54,431 nt of DNA from Deltaproteobacteria bacterium (GTDB lineage: Bacteria > Desulfobacterota > Syntrophia > Syntrophales > UBA6807). Numbering within the stretch: position 1 is the first letter of the stretch; every line of letters starts with the position of its first letter. The position numbers were made by a program, and so were the translations under genes. Location: positions 1 through 54,431 of the forward strand of contig JAFGQS010000031.1 of assembly GCA_016935565.1 (NCBI GenBank), in the 5' to 3' direction. Below the pieces are notes generated by a model. It searched no databases and was not told where the DNA came from. It saw nothing but the letters and a program-made list of their open reading frames with translations. Below, one piece after another: positions 5,911 through 33,780 of this stretch.

Positions 5911-7812
5911 CTATGCATGTCGAGCCATTCTCCGGAACAGCGCTGCCATCACAATCGTTGAAAGCACCAGACCAACGACAAGTATCATCAATGCCATAAC
6001 GAGTCCGATGTGAAGTGAAAGGTAACTGAATGCTATTAGCGGTATCAGGGTGACAGCAACGACTGATTTCAATACCTCGTGCTTTTCTATGAATAGCGCC
6101 AGATCTGGTGAGTATTTGTAATATGTCCGGATGATCATGCGTCCGAATGAACAGTGTACCAGATAAGTATCCCGGAAATCCTTCAGAATGCTCACATGGC
6201 TTTCAAGGGGAGAACCGTATGTAGCCGTGGCAAGGAAGCACCCACCCCTCCCACTATCACCGGCACCAGCACCAAGATCTCCCGACAATGATTGAGAACT
6301 ACCGGAGGAGATTCCACCGGGATCAGTGATAATTCCGTTGGCCACACCGTCGCTGTCACCGCTACCACCGTCTGTGAGTTCCAGGATGAACGACTGACCG
6401 TCGTCATTAAATGTTGTGTGCTGTGTATAATTGTACCACCCGTCAAGTGTGTCATACTTGTAGAAGTTATCCGTCGAGTAGATTCCCGCTGAAAAATAAA
6501 CCCGGACACGGGCGACGGCACCGGGTTGGTTCAAAATAAGGCGGTACGAGAAAAGCCCGTAGATAATATCTGACGGTCTTTCGGAACTATACGGAATATC
6601 TGCAGGGTCAACCGCATCCAGCGCCTGGATTTCAGTTATGGAATCGGAAATCTTTTCAACACCGATATTCACCGATCCATCTGATGCCCTGACACATTTT
6701 ATATTTTCAGGTTCATAGATATCGGGTATGCCATTGAGGTTGAAGTCAACGGTACCGTCCACTTCCCATTCATCGGGGACGCCATCACCATTAGTATCTA
6801 TGACATAGTATGATGTGGTAAATTCTGCAGAATCCGACCATTCCGATTCTGCTGAATAGACGTCGTAAAACCGGACACGTGCATAGTACGTCTGATTCGG
6901 CTTGAGTATCATGTGAGGTACCGGCAGTGTTGTACGATGACTGTCGGTTGCAACATCAAGAACAAGGCTGGAAAAATCATTTTGTTCACTGATCTGCCAG
7001 CGACTTTTCGTGTGAGAATCGCCGTCAGTATCTGAAAATGGATCAGTGGTAATACTGAGAGGTACTTCGGTCTCATTCTGACCATCTAGCGGATATGCAA
7101 TGGACGGCTTATCGGGCGGAACATTAGACGCCGGCTGGTCCACAATTGTTACCTGCCTGGCCGCTGTTTCGGTTATGTTGTTAAATGTGTAATTAACCTG
7201 GATTGTAACCGTCTGGCTGCCCGACACATTCAAAGTTGTCAGCACACCGCCGCCACTGATGGATGCATAGGGTGAATCCTCGCTCCAGGTCGCAACTTCT
7301 GTAATGTTATGCGTCGATCCGTCGTTGACCATTACCATAGCCGTATACGATGCATTGCTGTTCTCAAGCACCGAATCCGTCCCGCTTATGGAAACACCGA
7401 CAGGCACTACTGATGGGTCGGATACCTCGTTGGAATATGAGCTTTCCGCACCGGCATTGTATGCCGTCACGGCAAAGAAATAGACTGCGCCATCCTGCAA
7501 GCCACTGACTGTAAACTGAGGGGCATCAGGGTCGCTCAAACTGTTGACAGGCACGGTTATCGGCGAGTTGCCTTCTGCGGCCCCGGTACTGTTCTCGTAC
7601 GTAAACGAACCGGTTCTGTAGTACACCTTGTACCCTGTAACATTTTCTGACGCATCGTTGGGATCCCAGGCAAGGGTGACGTTTTTTGCCATGGCACTGT
7701 GTACTGATGAGATAAGAAGGAATAATACAATGACTCCCCAAAGAATAAGTGTGTTGAAGAGGGATCGATACTCCTGCTCCTTCATTGTAGATCTCTTTGT
7801 CAGAGGCTTCAT
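5911..7812 (-). CDS. FN3 / choice-of-anchor U / CFI-box membrane-anchored surface protein
   Basis: A 633-residue exported protein. Residues about 18-42 are a signal or anchor helix. Residues 45-130 are a fibronectin type III domain (VTLAWDPNDASENVTGYKVYYR to YSNEVSDP); 135-225 an Ig-like domain; 230-335 a second FN3-like domain. A Ca-binding-like DTNGDGVPDEWE segment lies near 340. About 365-510 matches the choice-of-anchor U domain with its closing SDGVANGIITDPGG. From about 530 comes the CFI-box C-terminus: GGCFLATATYGSPLESHV, then FRDTYLV, a YYKYSPDLALFIEKHE segment, and two hydrophobic helices ending RRMARHA. These domains are known as cell-surface sorting or anchoring modules. GGGAGGGCTCA supports the ATG at 7812. 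It lies downstream of Wzz- and CpsD-like genes, so a role at the exopolysaccharide surface is likely. Confidence 0.8.
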   Translation of the reverse strand: MKPLTKRSTMKEQEYRSLFNTLILWGVIVLFLLISSVHSAMAKNVTLAWDPNDASENVTGYKVYYRTGSFTYENSTGAAEGNSPITVPVNSLSDPDAPQFTVSGLQDGAVYFFAVTAYNAGAESSYSNEVSDPSVVPVGVSISGTDSVLENSNASYTAMVMVNDGSTHNITEVATWSEDSPYASISGGGVLTTLNVSGSQTVTIQVNYTFNNITETAARQVTIVDQPASNVPPDKPSIAYPLDGQNETEVPLSITTDPFSDTDGDSHTKSRWQISEQNDFSSLVLDVATDSHRTTLPVPHMILKPNQTYYARVRFYDVYSAESEWSDSAEFTTSYYVIDTNGDGVPDEWEVDGTVDFNLNGIPDIYEPENIKCVRASDGSVNIGVEKISDSITEIQALDAVDPADIPYSSERPSDIIYGLFSYRLILNQPGAVARVRVYFSAGIYSTDNFYKYDTLDGWYNYTQHTTFNDDGQSFILELTDGGSGDSDGVANGIITDPGGISSGSSQSLSGDLGAGAGDSGRGGCFLATATYGSPLESHVSILKDFRDTYLVHCSFGRMIIRTYYKYSPDLALFIEKHEVLKSVVAVTLIPLIAFSYLSLHIGLVMALMILVVGLVLSTIVMAALFRRMARHA

Positions 7813-29288: not shown

Positions 29289-30014
29289 TCAATCAAATGC
29301 CATTTCCGTCTTCCATTCCTTCCAGACATTACCGACGAGATCGGGTCCTGGCTTTAATGTCTTTTTACCGGGCCTCCATCCCGAAGGCGTTGCCTCGGTT
29401 CCTTCACTGTCCCGTACAACCTGGAACGCCTGAATCTGACGGATAGATTCATTGACATTTCTCCCTACGGGTGGTGTCAGCACTTCAAATCCCTGAACAA
29501 CACCGTCCGGATCAATAATAAATCTTCCCCTCGTTTCAACGCCGGCATCCTCGTCATAAATGCCATACACTGCCCCTACTTTTCCTCCAGCATCGGACAG
29601 CATGGGAAACGGAATACCACCCTTGACCATTTTCGACAACTCATGATCAACCCACATCTTATGAACAAACACACTGTCGACACTCATTGATAGTACGGTA
29701 ACACCAAGCTTCTTGAACTCAGGATGTTTTTCGGCAACTGCCGAAATTTCCGTTGCTCAGACAAAGGTAAAATCCCCGGGATAAAAGCAGAGCACTACCC
29801 ACTTACCGAGGTAATCTGAGAGCTTCACTGACACAAAATCCCCCTCAAAATAGGCCGGGGCCTCAAAATCCGGTGCTTTCCTCCCAACTTTTATCATACT
29901 GCCAACCTCCTTCTTTGTTGCTACCGTTGTTTCTTCTTTTGGTGCTGATTCAACAGATTCGCCAACAGGTCCCCCCGTTGGCCGCGCACAGCCTGCTTTT
30001 ATTTTTTTTGCCAT
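29289..30014 (-). CDS. selenocysteine-containing peroxiredoxin (PrxU type)
   Basis: One 241-residue AhpC/TSA peroxiredoxin interrupted by an in-frame TGA at 29757-29759 (codon 86). Before it comes [13 protein letters not shown] and [13 protein letters not shown]; after it, in the same frame and with no indel, [29 protein letters not shown] and [16 protein letters not shown]. The TGA takes exactly the place of the peroxidatic Cys (FTFVCATEI in relatives), so it is read as selenocysteine. The usual resolving-Cys motif VCPAGW is TPSGWRPG, so a 1-Sec mechanism with an external thiol is likely. ATG 30014 follows AAGGAGG. The final stop is also TGA. An N-terminal Lys/Pro-rich tail of about 50 residues precedes the domain. 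Confidence 0.88.
29729..29746 (-). promoter_or_regulatory. SECIS-like hairpin for UGA recoding
   Basis: Reading the mRNA, TTTCGGC AGTT GCCGAAA forms a perfect 7-bp stem (8 if the A-U closing pair is counted) with a G near the front of the apical loop. The stem begins 10 bases after the UGA and the loop 17 bases after it, within the spacing typical of bacterial SECIS elements inside coding sequence. Confidence 0.75.
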
Positions 30015-30375
30015 AGAGAACCTCCTTCTGTGTACAAATTGCAAACGCCAAATCGGGTTTCAACAACTGTAAAAAATGAATGTCAAGAATTACCCACTGT
30101 TTTATGTTGAAAACGTCTACTACATTCACATGGCACGAGGCTAAAAGGAACGGACTTACAAAAAGAACCGGAGGATGGGAAACCGTCGAGATAGGTTGCG
30201 TACATACAGTCTCTTGATAGAAGAATGAATCAAGCTTTATCCGGCAAGTACTGCAGCGTTTCTATTATAGACAAGAAACATTTTCATGTAAAGAAAATTA
30301 ACGGATGATAATTGATCAATCATGATCTGATATGGAGTGTTCGTGCCATAGAGCGCCGGAAAATATTTTTCAATA
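30015..30375. other. promoter region upstream of the selenoprotein gene
   Basis: 361 bases between the CNT transporter and the peroxiredoxin gene, both on the minus strand. A minus-strand TTGACA (complement of 30081-30086) with a weak TTGAAA 17 bases on is a possible sigma-70 promoter for the peroxiredoxin. No terminator hairpin or regulator box was recognised. Confidence 0.35.
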
Positions 30376-31661: not shown

Positions 31662-32096
31662 TTATCGCTTGATAACGAGGACCGGTTTCTTTGCCTTGCG
31701 TATGACCTTTTCAGATACGGAACCGAGAAGCATTTCTTTGACGTTACTCACCCCGTGTGATCCGATGACAATAACGGACACATCTTCTTCCTGTTCAACA
31801 CGCAAGATTTCCCTGAATGGAACACCTCTTTCGAGTCGAATGCGAACGGTAAAACCTCTTTCCGTCAGGCTCATTTTTGTTCTATTCAGGTCTTTCGTAA
31901 TATTCTCTTTAATCTTTTCTTCAATGGTCATAAACAATTCAGGAGCATATCGACTTGAGAAATCCATTATATTTGCATCCATTACATGGAGTACAATCAC
32001 CTCTTTTTTGTCTGCATTTTCCAAAGTTTTGATGAAATCCAAGGCATTTTTTGCAACATCGGAAAAGTCAGTGGGGTACAGAATTTTTTCAAACAT
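31662..32096 (-). CDS. universal stress protein (UspA family)
   Basis: A 144-residue UspA-fold protein. It opens FEKILYPTDFSDVAKNALDF and carries the ATP-binding signature VIVIGSHGVSNVKEMLLGSVSEKVIRKAKKPVLVIKR (G-x2-G-x9-G-[ST]). It is likely a nucleotide-binding stress or adaptor protein. GGGAGGGAACCC precedes the ATG. It is the first gene of the unit with the CNT transporter, and diverges from the small peptide gene at 32162. Confidence 0.92.
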   Translation of the reverse strand: MFEKILYPTDFSDVAKNALDFIKTLENADKKEVIVLHVMDANIMDFSSRYAPELFMTIEEKIKENITKDLNRTKMSLTERGFTVRIRLERGVPFREILRVEQEEDVSVIVIGSHGVSNVKEMLLGSVSEKVIRKAKKPVLVIKR

Positions 32097-32161
32097 GGGT
32101 TCCCTCCCGGTTAAACGTTAAATTGCCGCTATTCTGCACGATTTCACATATATTTTCCAGC

Positions 32162-32410
32162 ATGAATTTGCATTCGGATAAATTTCGGATAATACACCCA
32201 TCTCAATCACTGCAGTACTCCACGGGGTCATCCGCTTCAATCGACGGTACATGCGCTAATGGCCCAGACGTGGGTACCCCGTCATGCGAATCAGGCACCG
32301 TCAACGCGGGCACGGTATGTAACACGGTTATCGGGGCTGGTTCCGCAGGGGGTGGATGTTCTAGTGGAACCGGTGTTGGGGTGGCTTGCAATAACGGGAC
32401 AGGTGAATAG
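32162..32410 (+). CDS. small Gly/Cys-patterned peptide, candidate RiPP precursor
   Basis: An 82-residue peptide. The first 18 or so residues (MNLHSDKFRIIHPSQSLQ) could be a leader; the remaining 64 are almost only Gly, Ser, Thr, Ala, Val, Asn and Cys. Cys occurs at 31, 42, 53, 66 and 76, spaced 11, 11, 13 and 10, and four of the five are followed by x-x-G (CANG, CESG, CSSG, CNNG). Such repeated C-x-x-G-[ST] units recall Cys-rich precursors matured by radical SAM enzymes. There is no maturase, protease or transporter gene in the window, and no clear Shine-Dalgarno before the ATG, so the gene may be a remnant or an orphan precursor acted on in trans. The region is visibly richer in GC than its surroundings. 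Confidence 0.55.
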   Translation: MNLHSDKFRIIHPSQSLQYSTGSSASIDGTCANGPDVGTPSCESGTVNAGTVCNTVIGAGSAGGGCSSGTGVGVACNNGTGE

Positions 32411-32736: not shown

Positions 32737-33780
32737 ATGAACAGTCAAAATCCGAGTGAAAAAAACAACTCCTATGAAACAGACAAGCTGCTGACATGCC
32801 TGGAAGTGGGAAAACTCCTCACATCAACACTGAATTTACGAGGAATTCTGGAACTCATCATGAGCAAAGTCAGTCAGCTGGTTGATGCCGAGAACTGGTC
32901 TCTCTTGCTGAAGGATCAGGAAACGGGTGAATTATCTTTTGAAATAGCTGTCGGCATAGATAACAATACAATTAAAGGAATCCGCCTCGCTCCCGGCGAA
33001 GGGATTGCAGGTCAGGTGGCTGAAACCGGAGAACCCGTTTACCAACCAAATGTCAAAGATGACCCGAGATTTAATGAGAGTATTGATGAGCGAACAGGAT
33101 TTACCACCTCATCAATTGTGTGCATACCTCTTACCATTCACAGGAAAATATTGGGAGTCATAGAAATAATCAATGTCATGGATATGGAACTGTTCAAAGC
33201 GAAAGATCTTCCCATTTTGATGATTCTCGCGGATTATGCAGCTATTGCTATCGAGAACTCCCAGTATTTCGCACGAATTCAACGAATGAGCGTGACAGAT
33301 GAATATACCGGCTTTTATAATGTACGGTACCTTCATCACATATTAGATGAATTAATCATGAAGGCAGACAAGAGTGATACCAAAATAGCAGTCGTTTTCG
33401 GAGATATAGATAATTTTAAAGATGTTGTCGATGAGTATGGTCATCTTTTAGGCAGTCAGGTGCTCAAAGAAATCGCGGTAACTATCTCCCGCTGCCTGAC
33501 CGAAAAAGATATTCTCGTGAAATATGGTGGAGATGAATATGTGATAATACTTCCCGACAGAAACAAAGAGGAAGCACTTGATCTGGCTGAAACAATTCTT
33601 CAGTCCCTCAGAGAATCAACATATCTGAAGTCACGACCGGAACCTGTTAAGATTACGGCCAGCTTTGGTATTGCCGTGTATCCGGATGACGCTCATACAA
33701 AAAAAGACCTCCTTCTCTTAGCGGATAATTCAATGTACAAAGTCAAGAGGGGGCGTAAAGACGGAATCGGAACGACGTAA
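32737..33780 (+). CDS. GAF-GGDEF diguanylate cyclase
   Basis: A 347-residue cytoplasmic signalling protein. A GAF domain (about 20-180) has LRGILELIMSKVSQLVDAENWSLLL, LAPGEGIAGQVAETGEPVYQPNV and IHRKILGVIEIINV. The GGDEF domain (about 190-345) has TDEYTGFYNVRYLH, FGDIDNFKDVVDEYGHLLG and VKYGGDEYVIILPD. The active motif is GGDEY, not GGDEF, and the RxxD inhibitory site is absent (TEKD), so it may be active without product inhibition, or only binding. ATG 32737 is assumed; a TTG six codons earlier is the alternative. Confidence 0.9.
   Translation: MNSQNPSEKNNSYETDKLLTCLEVGKLLTSTLNLRGILELIMSKVSQLVDAENWSLLLKDQETGELSFEIAVGIDNNTIKGIRLAPGEGIAGQVAETGEPVYQPNVKDDPRFNESIDERTGFTTSSIVCIPLTIHRKILGVIEIINVMDMELFKAKDLPILMILADYAAIAIENSQYFARIQRMSVTDEYTGFYNVRYLHHILDELIMKADKSDTKIAVVFGDIDNFKDVVDEYGHLLGSQVLKEIAVTISRCLTEKDILVKYGGDEYVIILPDRNKEEALDLAETILQSLRESTYLKSRPEPVKITASFGIAVYPDDAHTKKDLLLLADNSMYKVKRGRKDGIGTT

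Follow-up and report, generated by a model that had tools for sequence, protein, structure and literature searches.

The window, by which we mean the whole 54,431-nucleotide stretch of DNA analysed here, contains a short open frame (P0001) that is on balance probably an orphan and a decayed relic of a ScmA-like precursor. Its ancestor would have been one of the RiPP precursor genes that lie beside SynChlorMet (Scm) radical SAM/SPASM cassettes. This reading is favored by the lack of a leader motif and of a Shine-Dalgarno site, by the failure to detect ScmE or a PqqD-type protein in the genome, and by a TAC codon at a position where a Cys is expected. Against it stand a core that is unbroken by stop or frameshift, the lack of an intact ancestor at the same locus in the relatives compared (G003 and G001), and a match to the Scm peptides that comes mostly from Cys spacing, the Gly of the CxxG units, and composition.

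An Open Frame With Regularly Spaced CxxG Units

P0001 stands alone in a 640-base gap that runs from a universal stress protein gene to a GAF-GGDEF gene (Table 1). Re-translation confirmed the 82-codon, Gly/Ser/Thr-rich frame with five Cys described by the first-pass annotation. These Cys occupy positions 31, 42, 53, 66, and 76 (spacings 11, 11, 13, and 10), and four of the five start a CxxG unit, while Cys53 is followed by NTVIG instead. In order, the core units read CANGPDVGTPS, CESGTVNAGTV, CNTVIGAGSAGGG, CSSGTGVGVA, and CNNGTGE, and the core ends in a proper stop without any internal stop or frameshift. From stop to stop the frame spans 124 codons, and its upstream extension overlaps the universal stress protein gene in antisense. 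The higher GC content that had been noted for the tract is real (0.52-0.56 vs. about 0.40 around it) and is accounted for by the residues encoded: the core has a GC of 0.58/0.71/0.50 at the first, second, and third codon positions, and the third-position value falls within the range of the neighboring genes (0.41-0.66). No tandem or inverted repeats were found at the DNA level at P0001, and the frame has no match in Pfam or NCBIfam.

TABLE 1. Coordinates of P0001 and of other features discussed in the text; positions are those of the window unless a contig or locus is given.
Feature	Position	Strand	Remarks
Open frame P0001	32162-32410	+	82 codons; translation MNLHSDKFRIIHPSQSLQYSTGSSASIDGTCANGPDVGTPSCESGTVNAGTVCNTVIGAGSAGGGCSSGTGVGVACNNGTGE, then stop
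P0001 core	32252-32407	+	Five Cys-started units; aligns with ScmA-like CxxG units of order relatives
Residues 1-18, proposed leader	32162-32215	+	MNLHSDKFRIIHPSQSLQ; outside the family profile alignment
Residues 19-30, putative decayed sixth unit	32216-32251	+	YSTGSSASIDGT; profile alignment begins here
20 bases upstream of the ATG	32142-32161	+	TTTCACATATATTTTCCAGC; without Shine-Dalgarno site
Universal stress protein gene	31662-32096	-	Name from sequence reading
GAF-GGDEF gene	about 32737-33780	+	Name from sequence reading
Peroxiredoxin, seemingly split	29289-30044	-	One frame, UGA at the peroxidatic position (GDFTFVUATEIS)
Fibronectin-like surface protein	5911-7812	-	
SbtM fragment, truncated and frameshifted	C142:4950-5161 (L118, own genome)		Found by SPASM search, then SbtM match of 67 bits
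SbtA-like peptide	L171 3380-3990		UGA in frame two or three times; shortly before an intact SbtM gene
SbtA-like peptide	L173 3400-4030		As above
SbtA-like peptide	L174 3000-3760		As above

A chance origin of this pattern is very unlikely. When all six frames of the window were scanned for stretches of 50 residues with four or more CxxG, P0001 was the only place found. In 6 Mb of simulated sequence from an order-4 Markov model trained on the window, a single CxxG cluster arose with a small-residue fraction of 0.49, compared to 0.90 for P0001, and no comparable small-residue-rich cluster was seen, which upholds the earlier statement that random frames do not give such a pattern. The absence of a close homologue and of a Shine-Dalgarno site, together with a codon use that is neither clearly gene-like nor uniform, would fit an open frame that arose by chance, or an RNA feature; the Markov simulation, the lack of an Rfam match at P0001, and an RNA folding z of -0.78 speak against this, and we consider its probability to be very slight.

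Two other genes of the window deserve mention. The seemingly split peroxiredoxin is likely a selenocysteine peroxiredoxin, and the genome therefore probably decodes UGA as Sec. The fibronectin-like surface protein has a C-terminus that we take to resemble a sorting tail of the CFI-box type.

Search for Homologues of P0001

Close homologues of P0001 were found neither in 155 genomes of the order nor in a sample of 395 genomes of the phylum, nor in a scan of GTDB contigs, viral contigs, plasmids, and phages. The GGDEF orthologues of the family members G003 and G001 have other upstream neighbors and no such peptide. Weak matches appear to be due to chance, being stop-containing frames or unrelated larger proteins, with the exception of one in genome G018 (E about 0.6), a 121-residue peptide in which nine CxxG units follow the leader MTTSKKLPYEPPLIIDLSG. 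With this peptide as query, a set of 26 such peptides was assembled, which shows that at least 23 genomes in the same order, probably Syntrophales, encode them. The check that had been proposed, for homologues with conserved Cys spacing beside maturase genes, thus succeeded at the level of a peptide family, with CxxG-repeat peptides beside ScmE, ScmF, and ScmD, and failed to yield a close homologue of P0001 itself.

A CxxG-Repeat Peptide Family Beside SynChlorMet Cassettes

The family peptides are longer than P0001 and consist of a leader of the Y-E-x-P type, with the motif Y-(E/A)-x-P followed by (L/I), and about 4-12 CxxG units that recur every 10-11 residues. Among the 167 units, 155 have a length of 10 or 11, Gly is found at +3 in 164, and Ala or Pro at +6 in 144. 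All 25 genes that could be tested have a Shine-Dalgarno site, with anti-Shine-Dalgarno duplex energies of -4.0 to -14.4 kcal/mol. For most of the peptides, SynChlorMet radical SAM/SPASM genes lie no more than a few kb away, and ScmE-type genes are present in all but two of the 23 genomes (G084 and G022, both draft). The G018 peptide adjoins genes for ScmF (542 bits), ScmE (567 bits), and ScmD (107 bits), all above the NCBIfam cut-offs, whereas the match to ScmC is weak. The cassette of G081 comprises an S26-like peptidase (just below the Pfam cut-off), an ABC exporter, a PqqD-type ScmD, and two precursors. ScmD has the PqqD fold according to Pfam, and ScmE and ScmF both have radical SAM domains, with a SPASM domain that is clear in ScmE. 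A metagenome-assembled genome deposited as Syntrophus aciditrophicus and the relative G034 carry the same peptide, a match that makes Syntrophales the probable order.

The existing ScmA model (TIGR04252) is narrow, since none of 100 peptides of relatives reaches its cut-off. Peptides with a Y-E-x-P leader and (CxxG)n that adjoin ScmE/ScmF (L021-L041, L081-L110, and L139) fall below this cut-off throughout the genomes searched. Divergent precursor-like peptides, whose leader reads RYE(A/P)P and whose Cys-rich cores are spaced differently (CGEF...C, CGCDSCC), are encoded at L040 and L050; such peptides occur in G028, near ScmE, and in G072. The literature searched yielded nothing about the chemistry and product of the Scm system.

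Relation of P0001 to the Family

Like ScmA-like precursors (TIGR04252, associated with ScmC TIGR04249, ScmD TIGR04248, ScmE TIGR04250, and ScmF TIGR04251), which occur in the same order, P0001 has CxxG every 10-11 residues, is rich in Gly, Ser, Thr, and Ala, and ends shortly past its last CxxG. In contrast to these precursors it lacks the Y-E-x-P leader, a Shine-Dalgarno site, and the cassette, and one of its units is irregular. P0001 itself does not match TIGR04252. Against a family HMM built without P0001 its core scores 13.1 bits, compared to 13.6 bits for the core of the weakest cassette-linked member (G081b) in a leave-one-out comparison. Whole genuine peptides reach at least 27 bits and P0001 only 11.8 bits, because its leader is absent. 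When the profile is limited to the core, the score of P0001 is 9.1 bits, which corresponds to an E of about 2 for a genome-sized search.

Shuffled sequences indicate what this similarity consists of. The score of P0001 is reached by 1 of 3000 composition shuffles and by 44 of 3000 shuffles in which the Cys positions are kept, and its pairwise scores with six family members exceed those of all 300 Cys-kept shuffles. When both the Cys and the Gly of the CxxG units are kept, 27 of 300 shuffles match the score of P0001; therefore the evidence consists of unit pattern plus composition, not of a detailed sequence match. This leaves room for the view that P0001 encodes a small protein, or part of one, that is rich in Cys and Gly but has no relation to the Scm peptides, and whose CxxG pattern is convergent. 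The weak single-sequence similarity to the G018 peptide is in line with this, as only a simple pattern is common to both and the Ala or Pro at +6 is not kept (Val or Asn in three units of P0001). However, the unit length and the Gly at +3 fit the family, the family is present in the same order, the best pairwise scores surpass those of Cys-kept shuffles, and no Pfam or NCBIfam match assigns P0001 elsewhere, so that we regard convergence as unlikely.

With leader, Shine-Dalgarno site, and cassette all lacking, P0001 is therefore not classed as a ScmA precursor; it would instead derive from one. The first-pass annotation had likened P0001 to Cys-rich peptides that radical SAM enzymes mature, and this is supported, as CxxG peptides of the family adjoin ScmE/ScmF/ScmD in relatives of the order. 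Ranthipeptides or six-Cys peptides also have a Cys-rich core, which is produced by radical SAM/SPASM enzymes of the PapB type. This parallel is a general one, and P0001 has no NCBIfam match.

Missing Leader, Ribosome-Binding Site and Enzymes

A short leader had been proposed for P0001, and the stated sequence is that of residues 1-18, but the Y-E-x-P...L motif of the family is absent from them. The family profile leaves the residues before 18 unaligned, P0001 has no Y-E-x-P-x-(I/L) motif, and visual inspection of the three forward frames immediately upstream revealed no leader motif. Residues 19-30 match the CxTGSSA unit of the family except for Tyr19 (YSTG vs. CxTG). Its TAC codon (32216-32218) may once have been a Cys codon, as TGC is one transition away (G-to-A). 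The poor ribosome-binding site, which had been named as the main doubt, is indeed a weakness: no Shine-Dalgarno sequence precedes the ATG, and the anti-Shine-Dalgarno duplex energy is +1.2 kcal/mol, far from the values of the 25 family genes.

Maturation genes, searched for in the genome with ScmE and PqqD models, appear to be missing as well. As had been stated before, no maturase is present in the window, where QueE at about 12 kb is the only radical SAM gene seen and no Scm protein was detected besides a cross-match to this QueE. In the genome as a whole, which is 99.15% complete, neither ScmE (the best match is the heme synthase AhbD) nor a PqqD-type protein above the cut-off was found. 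The SPASM genes found in the genome encode AhbC and AhbD, which are involved in heme synthesis, one 456-residue protein without NCBIfam match, and an SbtM fragment. The proposal of a new, working precursor is thus not borne out, given that leader motif and Shine-Dalgarno site are absent, ScmE and PqqD were not found in the genome, and the collections searched yielded no close homologue.

These findings bear on two readings of P0001 as a living gene. It might be an orphan precursor with a diverged leader that is matured in trans by an enzyme encoded elsewhere in the genome. The intact core frame with its proper stop is compatible with this, the CxxG pattern is far above chance, and the two draft genomes G084 and G022 likewise encode a CxxG peptide of the family while no ScmE was detected in them. 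Yet in an almost complete genome ScmE and PqqD were not found, the SPASM genes are restricted to those listed above, and besides the Shine-Dalgarno site and the leader motif a match to a sigma-70-like promoter is also lacking, which makes this reading quite unlikely. There is also a slim prospect that P0001 is a living CxxG peptide, with its leader absent or diverged, that was retained after loss of the Scm cassette. If true, such a peptide would be matured or used without the cassette, for example as an unmodified metal-binding peptide or with an unknown enzyme acting in trans. Of the two options that the first-pass annotation had left for an orphan, a remnant is the better supported, and service in trans is unsupported.

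The SbtM Fragment and SbtA-Type Peptides

The SbtA/SbtM thio(seleno)oxazole system (TIGR04082) offers another possible source, as a fragment of the maturase is present in the genome of P0001 and SbtA peptides, like P0001, are rich in Gly, Ser, and Thr and contain Cys or Sec. A frameshift splits the alignment of the fragment to residues 463-531 of the intact SbtM of family member G001 into two parts, which are 76% and 61% identical to the intact protein. G001 has, in addition to the intact SbtM, an SbtA-like peptide that contains UGA. SbtA-like peptides encoded beside SbtM have in-frame UGA, a U-x-G motif with a spacing of about 20, and a lipoprotein-like start; those just upstream of intact SbtM at three loci are listed in Table 1. 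Peptides of this kind would escape ORF callers.

P0001 could accordingly be a decayed selenopeptide of the SbtA type, a reading suggested by the SbtM relic in the same genome, the intact pair in G001, and the G/T/S-rich core. The differences are substantial: SbtA peptides have U/C-x-G about 20 residues apart and a lipoprotein-like N-terminus, whereas P0001 has C-x-x-G every 10-13 residues. Aligned with three SbtA-like peptides, P0001 reaches z values of -0.8 to 0.3, no better than shuffles, compared to 4.6-4.9 with four peptides of the Scm type. An identity as SbtA relic was rejected on the alignments with the three peptides, and we give it next to no probability.

A Model for the Probable Decay of P0001 and Its Implications

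Common descent with the Scm peptides, the chemistry, and the death of the gene are what we infer from these comparisons, and the order of steps given here for the Scm system is likewise deduced. In the relatives, the Y-E-x-P leader is presumably bound by the PqqD-like ScmD, and Cys or nearby residues of the CxxG units are presumably modified by ScmE/ScmF. The leader would then be removed and the product exported by the S26-like peptidase and the ABC transporter, where these are present. In the genome of P0001 the Scm cassette may have been lost, or may never have arrived with the peptide, and decay would have affected the leader, the ribosome-binding site, and one or more Cys units. That the core frame is still open may reflect recent decay, or a 52-codon tract that is GC-rich and poor in stops may persist for a while.

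Taken alone, P0001 is a probable remnant. Together with the SbtM fragment it suggests the loss of RiPP systems in one lineage. Beyond this genome, P0001 points to a broad family of precursors that combine a Y-E-x-P leader with CxxG repeats and that do not reach the ScmA model's cut-off in any genome searched. These precursors adjoin ScmE/ScmF in about one in four of the genomes sampled from the order.
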